Assembly (NCBI RefSeq): GCF_004348545.1
Contig: NZ_SMKL01000008.1
Span: forward strand, 62,001 to 126,000
DNA length: 64,000 bases
Origin: Jiangella ureilytica
Lineage (GTDB): Bacteria; Actinomycetota; Actinomycetes; Jiangellales; Jiangellaceae
Reading direction: 5' to 3'
Below, one piece after another: positions 10,522-20,578 of the stretch (its first letter is position 1; each line of letters opens with the position of its first letter). The notes beneath the pieces are model-generated. The model was not told the DNA's origin, made no database searches, and saw only the letters and a program-made list of their open reading frames with translations. Made by a program: the position numbers and the translations under genes.

Positions 10522-10596
10522 GGTCCTGTGGAGCAGCTCGGAGTGCTCGCCGCCCTGTCAAGGCGGAGGTCGCGGGTTCAAGTCCCGTCAGGACCG
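10522..10596 (+). tRNA. tRNA-Asp (anticodon GTC), integration site of the mobile element
   Basis: A 75-base cloverleaf: acceptor GGTCCTG pairs with CAGGACC, discriminator G, anticodon loop CTGTCAA with GTC, T-arm GCGGGTTCAAGTCCCGT. Its 3' half from the anticodon loop onward is duplicated at 20530-20578, so this tRNA is the attachment site; the intact copy is at the int end of the element. Confidence 0.96.
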
Positions 10597-10603
10597 CCAG
10601 CAA
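10555..10603 (+). repeat. attL, 49-bp direct repeat
   Basis: Identical to 20530-20578. Starts at CTGTCAAGGCGG in the anticodon loop of tRNA-Asp and ends 7 bp past the discriminator base. Similarity continues imperfectly for ~30 bp beyond the identical core, through a terminator hairpin. Confidence 0.95.
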
Positions 10604-10609
10604 TACCCA

Positions 10610-10635
10610 CAGCTCAGAGGCCATCCTCTGAGCTG
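10610..10635 (+). terminator. tRNA-Asp terminator hairpin, overlapping the 3' end of int
   Basis: A perfect 11-bp stem CAGCTCAGAGG / CCTCTGAGCTG with loop CCAT, followed by TTTTC. The left arm contains the int stop codon (10614-10616 on the minus strand) and the stem encodes its last residues. Confidence 0.85.
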
Positions 10636-11873
10636 TTTTCATGTCCGGACCCGGTCTCGTCGGCGGGCCGAGGCAGCGAAAAGGCATCGAACAGTCCCCT
10701 CACTCTGGTGCGGGCGCTTCCGGAGTCGTGCGTATAGAGGTTGAGCGTCGTCGTCGCCTGCTCGTGCCCCATGACCCGCTGGACGTCGTTGACCGGGACG
10801 CCGTCGGAGACGAGCCAGGTCGCGTACGAGTGGCGCAGGTCGTGGAAGCGCAGCCCACCTGAGGCCCGGCGAGCGACCTCCTTGACGGCGGCGGCCTCGG
10901 TCTCGAAGGTCTCCGTCGCTTCTCGTCCGGCCTCGTCCTGCCACGTGCCCCGATAGGCGCTCTCGTCCTCCTGGACCACCTTGCCCAGCAGGCCGGCCCG
11001 GACGAGCGCGGGGCGCCACACCCGGACGCGGAAGAGCGTGCGGCGGACCGGTCCGCCTGCCTGGTTCGTGAAGACCTCGCCCGCGTCGCCCTGGCCGTAG
11101 CGGCGACGGTGATCGCGCAGCGCTGTGACGACGAGCGGCGGGAGCGGGACGACGCGGCGGCCGGCGCGCGACTTCGGGAACGGCTTCGTCGTGACGGCCC
11201 CGGCGACCTCGACCGCGACCCGCACGACCTGGACCTCCTCGGCGTCCAGGTCGACGGCGTCCCAGCGGAGGCCGGCGCACTCGCCCCAGCGCAGCCCGGT
11301 TCCGCCGGCCAGAGCGACCAGGGCGCGGTGACGCTCGGGGACGGCGGGCAGGAGCTGGCTCACGAACGCCTCGCGGCTGATCGTGCGCTCGTCAGTGTCC
11401 GAACGACGGATCGCCGGGAGCTGGACGCCCTCGCACGGGTTGAAGGCAAGCAGCCGGTCACGGACGGCGAGCCGCATGATGCCCGCCAGCACGTGGAAGC
11501 ACTTCCGCACGGTGGCCGGCGAGCGCGTGGTGTTCAGCTCCGAGACCCAGCGCTGGACCGACGAGTGGTCGATCTTGTCCAGCGGCACCGAGCCCCAGCG
11601 CGGCAGCACGTGGGTCCGGAGGACCGAGTCCGTGCGCACGGTGGTCGTCGTGGCGCTCGCCCGCCCAGCGACCCATGTCGCCGCGTAGTCGCTCAGACGG
11701 ACGCGTCCGGCGCGAGGATCGACGTAGAGCCCGTGGTTCTTGGTCGACTCGACCTCGGCGAGGAACCTCGACGCGTCGCGCTTGGTCGGGAACGACTTGG
11801 ACCGCTGCGCCCCGGACGGATCACGCCACACCGCGCGATAGGTCCCGGCGGGCGTCTTGCGTACGAAGCCCAT
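10614..11873 (-). CDS. int: tyrosine recombinase integrase
   Basis: 419 residues. Site-specific recombinase that integrates and excises the element at tRNA-Asp. An AP2-like N-terminal arm-binding region (GTYRAVWRDPSG, residues ~10-21), a core-binding domain (~60-160), and a catalytic domain with R in GTGLRWGECAGLRW, HDLRHSYATWL, MGHEQATTTLNLY and the tyrosine in that last block. ATG at 11873 shares one base with the xis stop (TGATG). An extra ~45-residue segment between the first Arg and HxxR (KVVQEDESAYRGTWQDE) is somewhat longer than in many relatives. The 3' end runs through the tRNA terminator hairpin. Confidence 0.95.
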   Translation of the reverse strand: MGFVRKTPAGTYRAVWRDPSGAQRSKSFPTKRDASRFLAEVESTKNHGLYVDPRAGRVRLSDYAATWVAGRASATTTTVRTDSVLRTHVLPRWGSVPLDKIDHSSVQRWVSELNTTRSPATVRKCFHVLAGIMRLAVRDRLLAFNPCEGVQLPAIRRSDTDERTISREAFVSQLLPAVPERHRALVALAGGTGLRWGECAGLRWDAVDLDAEEVQVVRVAVEVAGAVTTKPFPKSRAGRRVVPLPPLVVTALRDHRRRYGQGDAGEVFTNQAGGPVRRTLFRVRVWRPALVRAGLLGKVVQEDESAYRGTWQDEAGREATETFETEAAAVKEVARRASGGLRFHDLRHSYATWLVSDGVPVNDVQRVMGHEQATTTLNLYTHDSGSARTRVRGLFDAFSLPRPADETGSGHENSSEDGL

Positions 11874-12151
11874 CAGAACAGCCCGTCCTGGCCGGGGAGC
11901 AGCGGTCCGGGCTCCGGGTCGGGCTCGAGGGTGACGTTCTCCAGCCAGTCGTGGAACGCCTGTTTGGGGATCACCCAGCGCCCGCCGAGCTTGCGCGCCG
12001 GGATGTCGCCGGACCGCACCAGGGCGTAGGTGCCGCCGAGGGCGAGGTTCAGCAGCTCGGCGACCTCGGCGACGGAGTAGACGAGGGCGTCGATGCGGGG
12101 CTGTTGTCCTGGCGGTCGGTGTGCGTCGAGGCGGATCACGTTGTCGGGCAT
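11873..12151 (-). CDS. xis: excisionase / HTH DNA-binding protein
   Basis: 92 residues. A MerR/Xis-type winged helix: YSVAEVAELLNLALGGTYALVRSGDIPARKLGGRWVIP occupies the middle (~25-62, motif given in parts as VAEVAELLN, ALVRSGDIPA and GGRWVIP). ATG at 12151 has GGAAGGAA 7 bp upstream. It overlaps the rep 3' end by 16 bp and the int start by 1 bp, so rep-xis-int form one operon. The expected role is to direct the integrase toward excision. Confidence 0.9.
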   Translation of the reverse strand: MPDNVIRLDAHRPPGQQPRIDALVYSVAEVAELLNLALGGTYALVRSGDIPARKLGGRWVIPKQAFHDWLENVTLEPDPEPGPLLPGQDGLF

Positions 12152-13710
12152 GGCGGGGTTCCTTCCGGGGAGGACGGGTCGGTTGCCGAAACATCACCGG
12201 ACGGCGGTCCGGTGGCCTGTTTGGCGGCGTCGTACTGCTCGCGCCAGCGGCGGCGTTGCTCGATCGACTTGGCGACGGCCCACACGTAGGAGGGCGCGTC
12301 GGGGTCGCCGGGTCGGACCGGCGTCCAGAGGTAGCGGGGCTTGCCGTCGGGTGCGGTGGCGGTGGCCGAGAGCTGGTCGTGGTCGTCTATCTCGATGCCG
12401 GCTTCGGCGAGGACTGCGCGTACGACGGCGGCTCGGTCGGCGCGGTGCTCGGTGAGCGTCTTGCCGGTCCACTTGCGTGAGACGAGGACACGGCGGCCGC
12501 CGAGCCCGAGGTGGTCGCGGTCGTGGGCCTTGGACGGGCAGCGGCCAGGTTCCATGCCCGGCTTGGCGTTCTTCGGCTGGGTGCCGTAGCGCAGCCAGTT
12601 CGCGCAGGTCGGCGAGCACGGGAGCCAGCGGACCTCTTCGGCGAGGCGGTCAATGTGGGCGCGGCGAGCGGCCGAGATGCGGTTCGGGTCATCGATGTCG
12701 AGCGGTTCGGCGATGGACTTGGTCAGGTACTTCGTCAGGTAGCCGACGCGTCGGTCAGCGGCCGGGGTCCCGGCGAGGATGCCTTGCAGGTCGACCTGGA
12801 CGCCGAAGCGCAGCACGTGGACCGGCTCGGGCTCCTCGCCGAGGTCGAGGCCGTCGCCGTTGTCGACGTAGTCCATGGCTTCGTCCCAGGTCGGCAGCAT
12901 CCAGCCGCCGTCGTCGACGTAGCCGCCCTGTTCGTCGGCCCAGGCGGGCCTGCCGTCGCGGTAGTGGTGGACGTGGTCGATGTCTGGCCACCAGACCTGG
13001 TGGTACGTGGCCGCTGCGACCTGCTTGATGAGCTTGCGCGGGATCGCACCGCGGATGGCGGCGTGCAGGTGCGGCGCGAGGCGGCGTTGCGGTTCGACGG
13101 TGGCGAAGTACTGCACGTTGTAGCCGGTGGCGCGGCGCAGGTTCTGCCAGAACCGGTCGACGAGCTTCGGGAAGTGCATCGCGTCCAGCGCGGCGCGCCG
13201 GTAGTCGTAGCGGTCCGGGTCGACGGGGACGCCCTCGTCGGTGACGCGACCGTAGGACGGCATCGTGAGGGTGAGGAACATCGACGGCCGGTAGGTCTTG
13301 CCATCCGGTGCCTCGAAGGTCCGCCCGACGGTATGGCCCGAGACCGGCAGCCGGGGCAGGTCGGGCACGTCCTCACGCCGCCTGGTGGACCGTACGCGCC
13401 GTTCCGTCGCATCATGCTCGCCATCGGCCGTGCGCGTCTCGTCGTTGCCTTCTGAGGCGTCGGGGTCGTCGAGCTCGGGTTCGGTATCGAGGTGCCAGCC
13501 CTCGCGGCACTGCTGCATCCGCAACCGGCGAGCCCGCTCCGCACAGGACGGGCAGACCGCGTCACGGGTCGCGCCACACGCGATCGTCACGGTCCGCACG
13601 TCGCCGGTCGCCGTGTCGGTCACCCGCGACAGCACCGGACGTACACAGGCACCGACGAGCACGGCGGCGCTGCGGACCAGCTCGTCGGAGAGCGCCGGGC
13701 CGAGCACCAT
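12136..13710 (-). CDS. RepSA-like replication initiator (rolling-circle, HUH-type motifs)
   Basis: 524 residues. The expected role is nicking at the element's double-strand origin to start rolling-circle replication. Visible motifs are a CPSC zinc-type pair near residue 36-39, FLTLTMPSYG (motif 1), PHLHAA (HUH motif 2) and a tyrosine/lysine block GYLTKYLTKS (motif 3). ATG at 13710 overlaps the stop of the upstream small gene (TGATG). Much of the region between motifs 2 and 3 is acidic. It resembles the initiators of pSAM2-like elements. Confidence 0.9.
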   Translation of the reverse strand: MVLGPALSDELVRSAAVLVGACVRPVLSRVTDTATGDVRTVTIACGATRDAVCPSCAERARRLRMQQCREGWHLDTEPELDDPDASEGNDETRTADGEHDATERRVRSTRRREDVPDLPRLPVSGHTVGRTFEAPDGKTYRPSMFLTLTMPSYGRVTDEGVPVDPDRYDYRRAALDAMHFPKLVDRFWQNLRRATGYNVQYFATVEPQRRLAPHLHAAIRGAIPRKLIKQVAAATYHQVWWPDIDHVHHYRDGRPAWADEQGGYVDDGGWMLPTWDEAMDYVDNGDGLDLGEEPEPVHVLRFGVQVDLQGILAGTPAADRRVGYLTKYLTKSIAEPLDIDDPNRISAARRAHIDRLAEEVRWLPCSPTCANWLRYGTQPKNAKPGMEPGRCPSKAHDRDHLGLGGRRVLVSRKWTGKTLTEHRADRAAVVRAVLAEAGIEIDDHDQLSATATAPDGKPRYLWTPVRPGDPDAPSYVWAVAKSIEQRRRWREQYDAAKQATGPPSGDVSATDPSSPEGTPPCPTT

Positions 13711-14039
13711 CACGGCCGCCCCGCCGGTCGCGGCGTGACCATGAACTCCGGCTCGTCGTCCTCCGGCCGGTACACAGGCAGCGGCCGACACAGCTCGGCA
13801 GCATCGACGGCCGGCGTGGCCTCCATCAGGCCGTGCACGCAGTGGCACGCGTCCAGCGGGCCGAGTACGCCGAAGCCGTCGCAGTCGATGCACACGATCC
13901 ACACTGACCGCTCGTGCTTGCCGACGCAGCGCGGTGACGCGCACCACCGGTAGCCGCACCAGATGCACACCTGGGCGAAGTTCAGCCGCAACGGCCGTAG
14001 CGTCGCCGCCATGGCCGAGGCGAGTGTCTGGGTCGTCAT
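13710..14039 (-). CDS. small cysteine-rich protein of the AICE replication module
   Basis: 109 residues. ATG at 14039 was chosen for GGAGG 7 bp upstream. The middle contains clustered Cys/His pairs (CIWCGYRWC, CVGKH, CIDCDGFG, CHCVHG), suggesting one or two zinc sites. The C-terminus is acidic. Translationally coupled to rep (TGATG). Small zinc-binding proteins at this position are usual in actinomycete integrative elements; the function is not known. Confidence 0.78.
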   Translation of the reverse strand: MTTQTLASAMAATLRPLRLNFAQVCIWCGYRWCASPRCVGKHERSVWIVCIDCDGFGVLGPLDACHCVHGLMEATPAVDAAELCRPLPVYRPEDDEPEFMVTPRPAGRP

Positions 14040-14202
14040 CGTGACCTCCGGGGATAGGGGATGACGCCATCCGACACTCAACACGTTATAATAAGTAGGA
14101 CGACTGGACAAGGCAGTATCCGACACGCCACGCTGACCGCCACAGTTACGCGGGCGACCGCCCAGGTGGAAGACTTGTTCTGTCGAGTAGAGGGGAGGGC
14201 CT
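14040..14202. promoter_or_regulatory. divergent promoter region of the rep operon and the GntR regulator
   Basis: 163 bp between divergent starts, with an unusually A/T-rich run (CGTTATAATAAGTAGG, 14085-14100) containing TATAAT on the plus strand and TATAAC on the minus strand. On the minus strand TTGTCC lies 15 bp upstream of TATAAC, a plausible rep promoter. Autoregulation by the GntR protein is expected from pSAM2 KorSA, but no operator was identified. Confidence 0.5.
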
Positions 14203-14982
14203 GTGGCGGACTTCAGGGGTCGCCCTGCCTACCTGCAGATCGCTGACGACATCCGCAGCCAGATCCTCGACGGCACGTTGCAGGCCGAAGACCGGTTGCC
14301 CAGCGAAGCCGACCTCATGGCCGACTACGGCGTCTCACGCATCGTCGTGCGCAACGCCGTCGAAGTCCTCCGCTCCGAAGGACTCGTGGTCAAGCAGCAG
14401 GGACGCGGAAGCTTCGTCCGAGCCCAGCGGCCACAGCGCACCCGCGTCGTCGGCGACCTGTATAGCGAGCGTCCCGAGGGCTCACCGTTCGCCGCGTCCG
14501 CCCGAGCGTCCGGCCAGGTCCCCGAGTGGGAGTACCAGACCCGCCGCACCACCGCCTCCAAGACCATCGCCGACCGGCTCGGCATCCAGGCAGGCGACCC
14601 GGTCATGCGCACCAGCTACCGCTTCTTCGCCGACGGCGAGCCCGCGATGCTCTCAACCTCGTTCGAGCCGCTCGCCATCACCGAAGGCACGCCCGTCGAG
14701 CAACCCGAAGGCGGCCCCGTCACCGGCGTCGTGCCCCGCATGGACGCCATCGGCATCCACATCACCCACGTCGTCGAGGACGTCACCGGACGATCCGCCC
14801 GCCCCTACGAGGCCGAGACTCTAAAGGTCCCGGTCGGCGTGCCCATTCTCGCGATCGAACGCACCTACTACGCCAAGAGCCGGCCCATCGAAACCGCCGA
14901 CATCGTCGTCTCCTCCGACCGCTACGTCCTGTCCTACCGGCTCCCCGTACCACCCCGGACGGATCAGCCGACGCCGCTATGA
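14203..14982 (+). CDS. GntR/HutC-family regulator (KorSA-like)
   Basis: 259 residues. An N-terminal winged helix (residues ~8-70; LPSEADLMADYGVSR, QGRGSFV) is followed by a UbiC/UTRA effector domain (~90-245). GTG at 14203 is preceded by GGGGAGGG. In pSAM2 the equivalent KorSA represses the activator of replication and transfer, keeping the element integrated; the divergent position to the rep operon supports the same role here. Codons look more AT-tolerant than chromosomal neighbours. Confidence 0.9.
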   Translation: MADFRGRPAYLQIADDIRSQILDGTLQAEDRLPSEADLMADYGVSRIVVRNAVEVLRSEGLVVKQQGRGSFVRAQRPQRTRVVGDLYSERPEGSPFAASARASGQVPEWEYQTRRTTASKTIADRLGIQAGDPVMRTSYRFFADGEPAMLSTSFEPLAITEGTPVEQPEGGPVTGVVPRMDAIGIHITHVVEDVTGRSARPYEAETLKVPVGVPILAIERTYYAKSRPIETADIVVSSDRYVLSYRLPVPPRTDQPTPL

Positions 14983-15302: not shown

Positions 15303-15679
15303 CTCCGCCTCATCGCGGGTGCGCATCGTTCACCGGTTGTCGACGTCCGCGCCGCTGTCTTGTCTTGCGCCTGTTGGTCTGCCACCGATCTGCGTCGCCC
15401 GATGTCTGGCACGCTGCTTCGAACACCGAGCTTGCCCCGCAGACCAATGACCGATCGGTCACGAGAGTGCGACGACGGCTGGTGCGATGTAACCAAACAC
15501 TTCACAAAGTTGCGTCAATCTGCCCGGATTCACGTGGCCGGATGCGGTGAAGCTGCGGCGCCGAGCGCCGGCCTGATCCGGTACGCCATGGTGGACGGCC
15601 TGCAGAATGAGCGAGCGAGACGTTCACGAGCGTGCTCGATTGGCGACAGGACCCGCCGCAGCGACTATGATCGCAAATC
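15303..15679. other. non-coding gap (377 bp) inside the mobile element
   Basis: No open frame here has actinomycete codon bias. GC is lower than the chromosome. No terminator or repeat was recognised. It marks the junction between the element's core module and its cargo. Confidence 0.5.
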
Positions 15680-16312
15680 GTGACCGAGCTGGAGTTCCTT
15701 AGCGCGACGATCGGGCAGTTGATCTGGCCCCTACTCATCATCGTCGTTGTGCTGTTGCTCAAAGAGCCCATCAAGACGATGGCCAACTCTCCGCGCTTGA
15801 AACGGCTCAAGGTTGGGCCGAGTGGCCTTGAAGCAGATTTCAACGAAGAGTTGGCGCAGGTCGAGAAGGAGCTCGAAGCCGAGCAGTCCCCCGCGGAACT
15901 CGAGTCGCCCGCCGAACTCGAGTCCCCGAGACGGGTCGAGGCCGTAGCCGCAGACTTCCGACTGGAGATGGAGCGGCTCGCCGAGGTCGCGCCGCGGGCG
16001 GTCGTAATGGAGAGCTTCGTGCGACTTGAGAGCTTGCTTCGCAACAGTATTGATGCTCCCGACGGTCAGCGCGGGCCGAGGTTCGTTCCGATGAGAACGC
16101 TGGGCCGACTCGCCGTTGACCAACAGATCTTGACAAAACGCGAGGCTTCTGTGCTCGATGAGTTGACCTATCTCCGTAACCGAGTCGCGCATGAGCCCGA
16201 GGAGCAGATCTCCCAGGAGGCTGCGATCCGCTACGCGGACGCTGTCTCGGATATTGCAGTCGCGGTCAACTTGGCATTGGGTCGTACGCACCTTGATGGT
16301 CCAGCGCTCTAG
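15680..16312 (+). CDS. membrane-anchored protein with HEPN-type RNxxxH motif
   Basis: 210 residues, GTG start. One N-terminal membrane segment (LIWPLLIIVVVLLL, ~14-27), a charged coiled-coil-like stretch (52-70), a duplicated PAELES hexapeptide (71-82), and a C-terminal helical domain containing LRNRVAH; R166-N167...H171 fits the R-x4-H active-site pattern of HEPN ribonucleases, with the usual polar residue after Arg. It resembles DUF4145-like HEPN domains fused to a membrane anchor. No toxin or antitoxin partner is adjacent. HEPN activity is inferred from the motif alone. Confidence 0.7.
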   Translation: MTELEFLSATIGQLIWPLLIIVVVLLLKEPIKTMANSPRLKRLKVGPSGLEADFNEELAQVEKELEAEQSPAELESPAELESPRRVEAVAADFRLEMERLAEVAPRAVVMESFVRLESLLRNSIDAPDGQRGPRFVPMRTLGRLAVDQQILTKREASVLDELTYLRNRVAHEPEEQISQEAAIRYADAVSDIAVAVNLALGRTHLDGPAL

Positions 16313-16699
16313 GTGCCTGCAGATTCGTTAGAGACCAGCGTCCGGCATTGCGAGTTCGTTCTGGGGTCGGACCTACTGCGCTTGCTCGTGGGGAGCGTCC
16401 GGATCTGCCGGGTGTATGTGATCGAAGTGCACGCTATTCGCCGCGACCGACGCGGTGTTCGGGCCAGGATCTCGGCCGCGGTGAGCAATACCGCGCGCAG
16501 TCTGTTGCTACGATTTTAACGTTGACGCGTCGAAGGTCAGAGCATCGGGAGACACGAACCAGTCGAGCACCATCCGCGGCCGCGACCCGACTTCCGCGGT
16601 TGTCTTGACGCAGTTGATGCTTGACGAATCTGTGTCGGTTGATCCTTGACGTGCCGCCCGAGCCGGACGGCATGGGACGCTTCTAAGGTGGAGGAGCAG
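16313..16699. other. non-coding gap (387 bp) with a short repeat shared downstream
   Basis: No convincing gene. Holds ACCCGACTTCCGCGGT at 16585-16600, repeated exactly at 17183-17198, and GATGCTTGAC at 16616-16625, whose inverse GTCAAGCATC occurs twice at 17134 and 17159. Confidence 0.55.
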
Positions 16700-17068
16700 T
16701 TGAGCGAAGATCCTGTGCGAGCACCGGACGTCGCTGCTGCTCGTGTCGCCTCGATCGTGAAACATCGCGACGAGCCGGCCTTCGGCCTCCTGCTGCAGCT
16801 CGCTGACCAACTCTTCGCTGACATAGAATTCGAGCGCCACCTCGCGGAAGGCCTCCGCGGCGAGCCAGCGCTAATCGAACTGTGGGACCTCTGGAGCGGT
16901 GACCAGCGATGGACGCCCTCCGTCTACATCGAAGGCACCGAGGTCGGATGGTTCGACGGGGAACGGCGTCACGTCAAGGTCCATCCGGATCGAGCAGGGG
17001 CCGTTGCAGATTTCGTCCACCGCCTATCTGCCTGGATGTCTAGGCGGGCTGTTCTGAGACCACGCTGA
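16700..17068 (+). CDS. hypothetical protein, element cargo
   Basis: 122 residues from a TTG start at 16700, chosen because GGAGG lies 5 bp upstream; GTG 16688 is an alternative. Helical N-terminal half (VASIVKHRDEPAFGLLLQLAD), then a compact part with WDLWSGDQRWTPSVYIEG and VGWFDGERRHVKVHPD. No known motif recognised. Lower GC and mixed codons like the rest of the cargo. Flanked on both sides by repeat-containing gaps, so it may be a separately acquired cassette. Confidence 0.6.
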   Translation: MSEDPVRAPDVAAARVASIVKHRDEPAFGLLLQLADQLFADIEFERHLAEGLRGEPALIELWDLWSGDQRWTPSVYIEGTEVGWFDGERRHVKVHPDRAGAVADFVHRLSAWMSRRAVLRPR

Positions 17069-17133
17069 CGAGGACGCCGACTGCGCGCCTAGATGCTGGA
17101 AGCCGGACCTTGCGCCTTCCTAGGCATCGCCGT

Positions 17134-17168
17134 GTCAAGCATCAGGTGATACGCGACTGTCAAGCATC
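17134..17168. repeat. iteron-like pair of GTCAAGCATC
   Basis: Two copies of TGTCAAGCATC start 25 bp apart (the 10-mers at 17134 and 17159), with an inverted copy at 16616-16625 and a variant TTGATCCTTGAC near 16638. Spacing and position upstream of a large multi-stem structure suggest a protein-binding or origin region. Confidence 0.5.
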
Positions 17169-17354
17169 GCCCGCGACAGGACACCCGACTTCCGCGGTGC
17201 ATTGCTGGATTGAGCTATTGAGGATCAAGCGGCGCGCTGCGCGCGCCGTGCCCGCCCGGCCGACTGGCCGGGCGTGCGGCCTGGCGGCCGTTCCGGGCCT
17301 TGCCGGCCGTCGGGCACACGGGCGGACAACGCTGAATCGACTATGCACAGTCAC

Positions 17355-17501
17355 GGTTGGAGGCGTCGTCCCCATAGCGGCCATCCTTTGGTCTCCACTC
17401 CACGCGTCAAGGGCGCCTCTGGCGTCACTGCGTGATCGGCTACGCCGACCCTTGACCCGCTCCGCTCCAACCAACGACCGGCAGCTATGGGGCGACGCCT
17501 C
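17355..17501. repeat. nested multi-stem DNA/RNA structure, non-coding
   Basis: Nested complementary segments: GAGGCGTCG-t-CCCCATAG (17360-17377) with CTATGGGGCGACGCCTC (17485-17501), 17 bp with one bulged T; GGTTGGA (17355) with TCCAACC (17466); and GTCAAGGG (17405-17412) with CCCTTGAC (17449-17456). The outer arm overlaps the second pair, so alternative folds exist. The preceding 17215-17340 is a very GC-rich run of short palindromes. No coding sense. Candidate replication origin or structured RNA. Confidence 0.6.
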
Positions 17502-17552
17502 AGAATGAGACGGCGCCCGGGAGAATCACCCACGCACGCAGCCACCAGCGGG

Positions 17553-19124
17553 CTAGCCAAGCATTTCCGCAAACAATTCGGAGGCCCCTTGTTGAGCCTG
17601 CGCCAATCGGACGGCCGTAGTCGCTGTGAGCATTAGCGGATCTTTGTGCTCCGTAACACTCGCATGGACGATTCGATCGATGCCGGCGCCAACCAGCGGC
17701 GCAACGGTCCTAAGGGTTCCCGACATCGCTACCGAGGAGGTTCGGCCGGCGTGGACGATGAGGTTTCTCTGCCTATACAGACGGCGGAACGCGTCCTCCA
17801 GTTGCTGCACGATTCGCGGCAGTATCTTTGCTGGATCTGCGATCAATTCCTTCATTCTTTCCAATGCTGCCATGTGTCGCAAAGCCGGCATATTCAGCGT
17901 GGCGTCGTTCCGAAGTGCCGTCTCAAAGGCGGAAGCCCGAAGCTTGCCATCTCGCATGGCACGAAGTTGGCGGGCGAGATCGTCAGTCATGGACGACGCA
18001 TAAGCATCAGATAGGGCGAGCAGTTCTGATCCCACGTAACTGCACCCAACGATCTGAGCCATCCTCGTGGCGGCTACAACTCGATTGTCAGCATCGCCTG
18101 GACCCACCAGGAGAGACTCAATAGCTGCCCAGCTCCCAGCTAAGGCCGGCACCGCGGGGCCACGGTCCAGTGGCTCCAAGATCTCAAGTGCAGCGTCGAT
18201 CTGAGGTGCGAGCCGCAGCCGAAATATCTCAGCGGTCTTCTCAAGGGAGAGCACCTGCACACGCCTCGGCCCTGGAAGGTAGGATACCGGCTCAGGTTCT
18301 CCCAACATGAAGAATTGTGAATGGAACTCAAGACGCTCGCGCGTGCCGACTCTAAAGCGCGAACTGAGCCGTTCCAGCCACGTCTTGACATCGGCCTGCA
18401 GCGAATAAACATCTCGCGATTGGATATCGAGCAAGAGGCCGCCGGACTGGCGGGGATGCTGCACCAAGGGAAACCATTCGTCAAGCCACTGCGCCGTCTC
18501 AGTGGGCGACAACCAGCAGCTTTCCCTTTCGGCGGGCAGCGCTGGCATGGCATCCACCGGAACGAGGACCTGATAGTTTACTTTGGGGCGGAGTGAGAGC
18601 GAATGGGCTTCGTCGAAAAGATCGGAAAGTGACAATTGATCAGCACGGTATCTAATATGATATGTAAGCCACTTATGTATGAACTGAGAGCTGTAGCCTT
18701 GATCAAGAAGATGGCTGGTGGCCGCGCGGGCGACTACCTCAGGCGGAACATCTTCGCCGGCAACCGCACCAGCCCAGTTGGCCAGGTAGGCCTGACGGGA
18801 TTCCGAGTTGAGAAGAGTCAAGGCCTCTGAATCGTGGCTCTTTGGAACAAAGGCGCGGTTCACGTAAGTGATGATCTGCCCGCGACGAGCCTCCGAGCCA
18901 AGCCCAAGGTCTCTTCGCACGCGCGGTGCCAGCGACTGTCGGAAGTACTTGAGCGAACCTTCGGACAGGGCGCTCTCATGCCTCGCCTGTGCAGCCTCGA
19001 TGAGCTCGTCGATCTCCAACAGCGCGCCGAGCCGCCAGAGTCGGCGAGACCACGGCGTGGCGGCAGCACAGAAGTCCAGCATGCGCTTCGACACATGTTG
19101 TGCGTACGGCTTGTTCTCCAGCAC
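17553..19124 (-). CDS. large ApeA-like HEPN-motif protein, candidate defence factor
   Basis: 523 residues, GTG start at 19124. An uncharacterised N-terminal ~300 residues (mixed helix/strand, no signal peptide) is followed by a helical C-terminal domain with WAAIESLLVG (332-341) and LYRQRNLIVHAG; R453-N454...H458 is the R-x4-H HEPN ribonuclease motif in the IVHAG context typical of ApeA-like HEPN domains. ApeA proteins are known abortive-infection factors against phages, although this protein's N-terminal half is not recognisably the same. Single gene on the minus strand with palindromic DNA on both sides. Function inferred from motif and location. Confidence 0.75.
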   Translation of the reverse strand: MLENKPYAQHVSKRMLDFCAAATPWSRRLWRLGALLEIDELIEAAQARHESALSEGSLKYFRQSLAPRVRRDLGLGSEARRGQIITYVNRAFVPKSHDSEALTLLNSESRQAYLANWAGAVAGEDVPPEVVARAATSHLLDQGYSSQFIHKWLTYHIRYRADQLSLSDLFDEAHSLSLRPKVNYQVLVPVDAMPALPAERESCWLSPTETAQWLDEWFPLVQHPRQSGGLLLDIQSRDVYSLQADVKTWLERLSSRFRVGTRERLEFHSQFFMLGEPEPVSYLPGPRRVQVLSLEKTAEIFRLRLAPQIDAALEILEPLDRGPAVPALAGSWAAIESLLVGPGDADNRVVAATRMAQIVGCSYVGSELLALSDAYASSMTDDLARQLRAMRDGKLRASAFETALRNDATLNMPALRHMAALERMKELIADPAKILPRIVQQLEDAFRRLYRQRNLIVHAGRTSSVAMSGTLRTVAPLVGAGIDRIVHASVTEHKDPLMLTATTAVRLAQAQQGASELFAEMLG

Positions 19125-19265
19125 CTCGAGGGGCTACTCTCTTATCTGACGGGAGGAAGTCGCCTCAGGGCCGCTTCCTCCCTTTCATTTTGGCGTAGCT
19201 GTTCGCCCGCCCAGCGAGAAAGCCCTGGTGAGGGGCCTGCAGCGGGTCTAAGCGGCAGAGTTCGC

Positions 19266-19341
19266 GCATCCACCAGTACGCTCGGCCCGACTAGCGCGAA
19301 GCGTCGCCGTAGGCGATCGGGCCGAGCGTACTGGTGGATGC
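19266..19341. repeat. perfect 25-bp inverted repeat with inner hairpin
   Basis: Arms 19266-19290 and 19317-19341 (beginning GCATCCACCAGTACGCTCGG) are perfectly complementary; the 26-bp interior contains TCGCC-gta-GGCGA (19304-19316), extending the foldback. It lies in a 340-bp gap downstream of two small genes and upstream of the HEPN gene. It could be a terminator, but the arm length also fits a replication origin or protein-recognition site. Confidence 0.9.
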
Positions 19342-19464
19342 AAATCGGCGCAAATTCGATCAAGTTACATGGTACCTGACCTGGGCCGATCTACGGCTGA
19401 CCGTCCATCGTTTACGCATGGATCCCACTGCGACCCCCGTGCGACGGGACCAGCCGGCGCCTCG

Positions 19465-19758
19465 TTAGACGTCGTCGCGGCCAGCTCGTCGCTGGATGCG
19501 TTCGACGGCCTCGCGGATGGCCTCATGCAGTAGATCGGCCTCATGAGTCCCGAGGCGAACCACAGTGCTGCGACCATGACGCGGCACGGTCGCCAGCTCG
19601 ACCCCGGTCGTCGAGCTGTGCGGGCGCACGACGTTGACGCCGAGCACCCAGCGTCCCGAGTCGGCCGGGATCGACTCCACATAGTGCCGGTGGACGGTGT
19701 GGACCCCGGACTCATCGCACCACTTCACCGAGCAGTCCTCCCGGTCAGCGGCGGTCAC
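19465..19758 (-). CDS. hypothetical protein of the element
   Basis: 97 residues. Start overlaps the stop of the upstream gene (ATGA at 19755-19758), indicating coupled translation. Contains the pattern VLGVNVVRPHSSTTGVELA, then RLGTHEADLLHEAIREAVERIQRR, a C-terminal helix. No known domain recognised; a small beta-rich N-terminus with Cys and His (CSVKWCDESGVH) might bind a metal. Confidence 0.7.
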   Translation of the reverse strand: MTAADREDCSVKWCDESGVHTVHRHYVESIPADSGRWVLGVNVVRPHSSTTGVELATVPRHGRSTVVRLGTHEADLLHEAIREAVERIQRRAGRDDV

Positions 19759-20279
19759 GAGGGATCCTCGGTCTCGGCGCGCTGGATCTTGCGCAGATCA
19801 CGGACGACGGACTCCAGCTCGCCCAGCGTCACACCCGTCTCGGCCAGCACACCGGCGACGCGGTCGAACACTTGGCGGTGGGCCTGGCGGGTGAGTTCGT
19901 AGCCGTCCTGCGGGTAGAGCACCCCCGGCTTCATCAGCTCCAGGCCGCCGACACGCTCGACCATGCGATTGAGCTGTTCGACGATCTCGACATCGGTCGC
20001 GCCGGGTAGGTATCGCTCCCGCACGTTGGCAAGCAGCTTCGGCGTCCACATCGCCTGCTGCGCGACGTCGGCGATGCGCACCAGGTCGGCGGCGAGCCGG
20101 CGGGCCTCCTTCGGGAGCAGATCGAACTGCGCGTACATGTCGGTATCGAACGGCTTGATCTCCACATCGATATGGGCATCGCCGTGCAGGATGTGCGCGA
20201 CCATCTCGCCGACGCCCTCTTCGACGAAGGGTGCGCGGGTGATGATCTCTCGGGGATCGGGTTCGGGTAGCTTGACCAC
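19755..20279 (-). CDS. hypothetical protein of the element
   Basis: 174 residues, GTG start at 20279 with AGGGAGAG upstream. Predominantly helical: KEARRLAADLVRIADVAQQAMW in the middle and a C-terminal VLAETGVTLGELESVVRDLRK. No transmembrane segment or catalytic motif seen. First gene of a two-gene unit reading away from attR. High GC like the chromosome, unlike the HEPN cargo, suggesting it belongs to the element's older backbone. Confidence 0.75.
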   Translation of the reverse strand: MVKLPEPDPREIITRAPFVEEGVGEMVAHILHGDAHIDVEIKPFDTDMYAQFDLLPKEARRLAADLVRIADVAQQAMWTPKLLANVRERYLPGATDVEIVEQLNRMVERVGGLELMKPGVLYPQDGYELTRQAHRQVFDRVAGVLAETGVTLGELESVVRDLRKIQRAETEDPS

Positions 20280-20529: not shown

Positions 20530-20578
20530 CTGTCAAGGCGGAGGTCGCGGGTTCAAGTCCCGTCAGGACCGCCAGCAA
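20530..20578 (+). repeat. attR, 49-bp direct repeat
   Basis: Exact copy of 10555-10603, a tRNA-Asp 3' half without the 5' half, hence not a functional tRNA. It marks the right end of the element. Confidence 0.95.

Follow-up and report, generated by a model that had tools for sequence, protein, structure and literature searches.

The ApeA proteins are bacterial RNA-cutting proteins with an established anti-phage role, and carry a C-terminal HEPN domain with an RN-x(3)-H catalytic motif. A survey of HEPN proteins in 2013 listed a domain of about 300 residues at the N-terminus of ApeA, named ApeA-NTD1 and made up mostly of beta strands (PMC3710099). Structures are available for Thr1ApeA of Thermoactinospora rubra (PDB 9hxl) and for Ec2ApeA of E. 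coli (PDB 9hxb, 9hxd and 9hxi), and according to the title of a 2026 preprint ApeA is activated by deoxydinucleotides. In actinomycetes, nucleases specific for deoxydinucleotides are reported from AICEs and from the vicinity of defence systems (PMC11706625).

Here we describe a gene, apeA, found in a 64,000-nucleotide stretch of the Jiangella ureilytica genome (contig NZ_SMKL01000008.1, positions 62,001 to 126,000; referred to below as the window). The gene very probably encodes an ApeA defence factor that works as a single-gene system; it occupies a cargo slot (slot 2) of a pSAM2-like mobile element that is integrated at a tRNA-Asp gene. The features of the element are listed in Table 1.

Table 1. 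Features of the apeA-carrying element, in window coordinates.
Feature	Position	Strand	Details
attL core	10555..10603	+	49 bp; overlaps 3' half of tRNA-Asp (10522-10599)
Tyrosine integrase (int)	10614..11894	-	Pfam Phage_integrase 1.1e-20; 67-96% identical in sister elements
Excisionase (xis)	11873..12151	-	NCBIfam TIGR01764 2e-12
RepSA replication initiator	12136..14070	-	Pfam RepSA 2.2e-93
GntR/UTRA regulator (gntR)	14203..14982	+	Pfam GntR 1.8e-18, UTRA 1.3e-18
Cargo slot 1	15303..17150 (approximate bounds)	.	Variable between sister elements
Second HEPN-like protein	15680..16312	+	Slot 1 cargo; hydrophobic N-terminal segment, Swt1-like HEPN at C-terminus
Conserved non-coding spacer between slots	17172..17509	.	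Sister-element alignment
Cargo slot 2	17510..19439 (approximate bounds)	.	Variable between sister elements; here apeA only
ApeA-type HEPN protein (apeA)	17553..19124	-	523 aa; slot 2 cargo; HEPN motif R453-N454-(x)3-H458
Hairpin with perfect 25-bp stem, between orf97 and apeA	19266..19341	-	RNA fold z -9.3
orf97	19465..19758	-	Conserved backbone gene of element family; sister-element alignment
orf174	19755..20279	-	Conserved backbone gene; sister-element alignment
attR core	20530..20578	+	Perfect 49-bp copy of attL

The apeA reading frame and its surroundings

The apeA reading frame opens with a GTG codon and runs without interruption to its end. An initial annotation of this DNA had picked out a HEPN motif, LYRQRNLIVHAG, at residues 449-460, and this was confirmed when the protein was aligned with 36 relatives that are 29-36% identical to it. 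R453, N454 and H458 are invariant in all 37 sequences, as are R448 and Y450 in the same C-terminal region and R14, W25, R27, W30, E40, Y113, W117, E129 and D141 in the N-terminal part. Because the motif residues are invariant across 37 proteins, we conclude that the motif did not arise by chance and that the reading frame is real. The gene also lies in DNA of lower GC content, as had been noted (58.7% for apeA against 71.5% for the window).

It had further been proposed that apeA sits alone on the minus strand of the element, between large palindromes. The gene does stand alone, but int, xis, repSA, orf97 and orf174 are encoded on the same strand. Upstream there is indeed a perfect 25-bp inverted repeat, whereas the structured region downstream of apeA, at 17190-17330 within the spacer, is weaker (fold z -2.6). 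The upstream hairpin is probably a terminator or an insulator. One partial, weak match to this hairpin was seen elsewhere in the genus.

Relationship to characterised ApeA proteins

When the protein was used as a single query with phmmer, residues 11-504 aligned with Thr1ApeA (3.5e-70). A profile built from 13 relatives matched the same structure at 3.4e-146 and Ec2ApeA at 9e-9, and a 37-row profile matched Ec2ApeA at 2.8e-10 in two stretches that are in register, one in the N-terminal half (41-301 on Ec2ApeA 50-321; weak, with an independent E-value of 4e-4) and one in the HEPN segment (439-470 on Ec2ApeA 482-513). Ec3ApeA was matched by this larger profile at 8.8e-5. The value of 4.5e-189 that it gave for 9hxl is partly circular, as the T. 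rubra protein is one of the profile rows; no such circularity affects the single-sequence match to 9hxl, the 13-row profile or the Ec2ApeA match. Judged by its sequence, therefore, the window protein is a distant full-length relative of ApeA, with homology along its whole length to designated ApeA proteins and, in the N-terminal half, to the E. coli protein, and the earlier description of it as an ApeA-like HEPN protein is borne out.

None of this could be seen with standard models. Single-sequence scans of Pfam, PADLOC, PHROGs and NCBIfam gave nothing significant for the window protein, and the Pfam HEPN_Apea model scored it at 12.2 bits, below the cut-off of 24.4. Twelve relatives were also tested; HEPN_Apea did not match them at an E-value of 0.1, and the PADLOC models missed them too.

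The N-terminal 300 or so residues had been left unrecognised in the initial annotation, with the suggestion that they might form a new sensing domain. This does not hold, since residues 1-300 can be aligned to the N-terminal halves of ApeA proteins whose structures have been solved, and the region is an ApeA-type N-terminus. An AlphaFold (AF2) model of the protein (pLDDT 93.3, pTM 0.92) is mostly helical to residue 178, alpha/beta to about residue 300 and then continues into a helical HEPN part; the predicted helical start differs from ApeA-NTD1 as surveyed in 2013, with its mostly beta-strand make-up (PMC3710099). In searches of a PDB library with Foldseek and VIA-align, the HEPN defence protein AbiV (PDB 9bj7) aligned weakly on residues 299-494 (Z 5.3); the other matches were at chance level, and the 9hx ApeA entries were absent from the matches returned.

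The element that carries apeA

The apeA gene lies within an integrated element of 9,975 bp that is bounded by perfect 49-bp att repeats. Like an AICE, the element has a tRNA-gene integration site together with int, xis, RepSA and a GntR regulator. No match to FtsK_SpoIIIE, which would mark a DNA translocase of the FtsK/TraB type, was found on the contig, and because a transfer gene of this kind was not found we do not class the element as a complete AICE. A search of the window with Rfam returned two tRNAs only and left the spacer unmatched.

Two of the backbone genes call for comment. The Pfam RepSA match begins at residue 133 of the annotated protein, so the true start of RepSA probably lies near 13674, and for the same reason orf138 is probably the real gene at 13674-14126. 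It was observed that the N-terminal extension of RepSA overlaps orf138 over this interval and that both frames are conserved in sister elements. The orf174 family occurs in all 12 genomes of the genus, where a single genome can have as many as eight matches, and had no match outside the genus among 297 genomes of the class.

Sister elements share the backbone and differ in cargo

In order to compare elements without selecting for their contents, nine regions with close copies of orf174 were taken regardless of cargo, and eight of these could be aligned (L129-L135 and L137). These eight sisters, all from related genomes, share int, RepSA, the position of gntR, orf97 and orf174. The gntR gene is 97-100% identical in seven of them and has diverged in L135; the spacer of about 330 bp is likewise conserved in seven, with L135 aligning only at its right end. 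At all seven sisters checked (all but L134), att repeats of at least 44 bp were found, at either tRNA-Asp or tRNA-Pro. Slot 1, between gntR and the spacer, and slot 2, between the spacer and orf97, showed no alignment between the window element and the sisters.

The cargo genes, which were called with a codon-composition heuristic, include many that resemble defence systems. L129 carries Thoeris ThsB and ThsA with an MrcB_N/NOV_C protein, L130 a KAP ATPase resembling QatA, L131 GmrSD with a RiboL-PSP HEPN, and L132 an OLD/Gabija-like ATPase-Toprim with a Fic protein. In L133 there is a Pycsar cyclase and PycTM along with a DUF3644 protein of candidate type PDC-S19, in L134 DUF6414 with unknown proteins, in L135 a GmrSD of candidate type PDC-M55C, and in L137 a PD-Lambda-2_B-like protein with a weak YoeB-like match. 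PADLOC thus recognises one or more genes in the slots of seven of the eight sisters, although some of these matches (KAP, Fic and M78-type) are in part to general domains. Cargo can also be shared between elements, since the slot 2 proteins of L130 and L129 start alike (MQAELEETLLLQEEW / MQAELKETLLLQEEW). On the reverse strand of L131 an integrase fragment follows the att repeat at attR, which suggests the remnant of a second, tandem insertion.

Together with the homology to ApeA, the defence systems in the sister slots support the anti-phage function that had been put forward for apeA, although the activity itself is a prediction. A wider proposal, to which we give even weight for and against, is that these non-autonomous, tRNA-integrated RepSA elements of about 10 kb serve the genus as a dedicated defence carrier. 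Their backbone would stay constant while whole anti-phage systems (ApeA, Thoeris, Pycsar, GmrSD, OLD/Gabija-like, Fic) are swapped into two cassette slots that are independent of each other, and the conserved spacer of about 330 bp between the slots would act in transfer, replication or cassette exchange.

All eight sisters additionally have a PIN toxin and Phd-YefM antitoxin pair in slot 2, beside orf97, that is absent from the window element; PIN and Phd-YefM each had a Pfam match in one element and were recognised in the others from shared sequence. The presence of this pair everywhere but here would fit a reading in which apeA has no part in phage defence and its product, a toxin-like RNase, instead serves to retain the element in the host by addiction or stabilisation. 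However, apeA has no evident antitoxin gene next to it in the window and its relatives have no consistent partner, and a stand-alone gene whose product shares homology with anti-phage ApeA in its N-terminal half makes such a role very unlikely. Phage defence is the reading that we retain.

The second HEPN protein

The initial annotation had also pointed to a second HEPN protein nearby, and this is present: the slot 1 product matches HEPN_Swt1 of Pfam with an E-value of 2.2e-5 and 25.2 bits, just below the cut-off of 27.5. It had been suggested that the two HEPN genes form a two-component system, and a joint defence or toxin-antitoxin system might be imagined from their presence on one element, about 1.2 kb apart, and from the HEPN-type R-x(4-6)-H motif found in both proteins. 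The genes nevertheless occupy different variable slots with the conserved spacer between them, and the co-occurrence check was negative throughout. Relatives of the second protein were found at none of the other apeA loci, on no plasmids and in none of 21 other genomes of the family; among 247 genomes of the class there were two, distantly related (27-30% identical), and neither of those genomes had an apeA match. We therefore give hardly any credence to a two-component system, and the second HEPN protein is better read as independent cargo than as a partner of ApeA.

Distribution of apeA relatives

A scan of genome contigs with the single protein found no relatives and an alignment was needed as the query; with this we found 79 apeA loci in Actinomycetota, Acidobacteriota, Pseudomonadota and others. 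Relatives are also present on 18 plasmids, mostly from Streptomyces, with others from Pseudonocardia, Mycolicibacterium, Tessaracoccus, Arthrobacter and Burkholderia. The viral contigs of IMG/VR contain two full-length copies, and none was found in the phage collection. In a tree the window protein pairs with a copy from a Tessaracoccus plasmid (support 97/91), on long branches and away from Thr1ApeA. Another apeA copy is found in a sister genome (G397; L017 / L101), where it lies beside a gene resembling a DNA polymerase III subunit and is probably broken, because it has one in-frame TAG stop.

The genes that flank apeA vary from locus to locus, and none of the genes of the window element consistently adjoins the other copies. 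Since the neighbours change and no element gene recurs beside it, apeA behaves as a single-gene system, and the changing neighbours along with the spread over plasmids and phyla fit a stand-alone mobile defence gene. PADLOC matches are not visibly more frequent in the genes flanking the relatives' apeA loci than in genes more than 6 kb away: among the matches listed, some 10 of 109 genes adjacent to apeA match PADLOC at 1e-8, and genes beyond 6 kb match too.

The frequency of apeA relatives on plasmids and mobile elements raises the question of whether the targets of apeA are competing plasmids and integrative elements instead of phages, and there are several RepSA elements per genome in the genus. 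Set against this, the ApeA system has been reported in the literature to be anti-phage and no direct sign of plasmid exclusion was seen here, and we think this alternative improbable. Protection against phages stays the favoured reading.

Discussion

If the window protein works as its family does, the N-terminal 300 or so residues would sense a sign of phage infection. Going by the title of the 2026 preprint, the trigger would most likely be deoxydinucleotides, released as phage nucleases degrade DNA; a signal of this type is plausible in these hosts, given the reported deoxydinucleotide-specific nucleases of actinomycete AICEs and defence neighbourhoods (PMC11706625). Binding of the ligand may alter the assembly of the protein such that paired HEPN domains cleave the cell's RNA, and growth would then stop before the phage matures. 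By analogy with the family, we infer both the HEPN RNase activity and this abortive-type protection for the window ApeA. The element would benefit because its host, and hence the element itself, is protected from phages or rival elements. The ligand and the RNA target may differ from those of known ApeA proteins, as the nearest relative is only 36% identical.

The window protein adds a member to an actinobacterial and acidobacterial branch of ApeA that was missed by Pfam and PADLOC models in all 13 proteins tested, and for that reason surveys that rely on such models may undercount ApeA. ApeA is, all the same, an already known system, and we regard the two-slot non-autonomous carrier as the more interesting result. 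The carrier is small and enumerable, and a gene's place in it is enough to rank uncharacterised cargo among defence candidates; the second HEPN protein, DUF6414 and several genes without a name are examples.

Compared with known systems, the window protein aligns with Thr1ApeA over residues 11-504 in the same domain order and shares its YRQRN-x(3)-H HEPN motif, but the two are only about 33-34% identical and Thr1ApeA falls on a separate Streptosporangiaceae branch of the tree. The likeness to Ec2ApeA, in the N-terminal half and the HEPN segment, is detectable by profile only, and the middle (about 301-438) is unaligned. The element resembles pSAM2-type AICEs in its tRNA site, tyrosine integrase, excisionase, RepSA and GntR regulator; unlike them it is without an FtsK/TraB transfer gene and has two variable, defence-filled slots.
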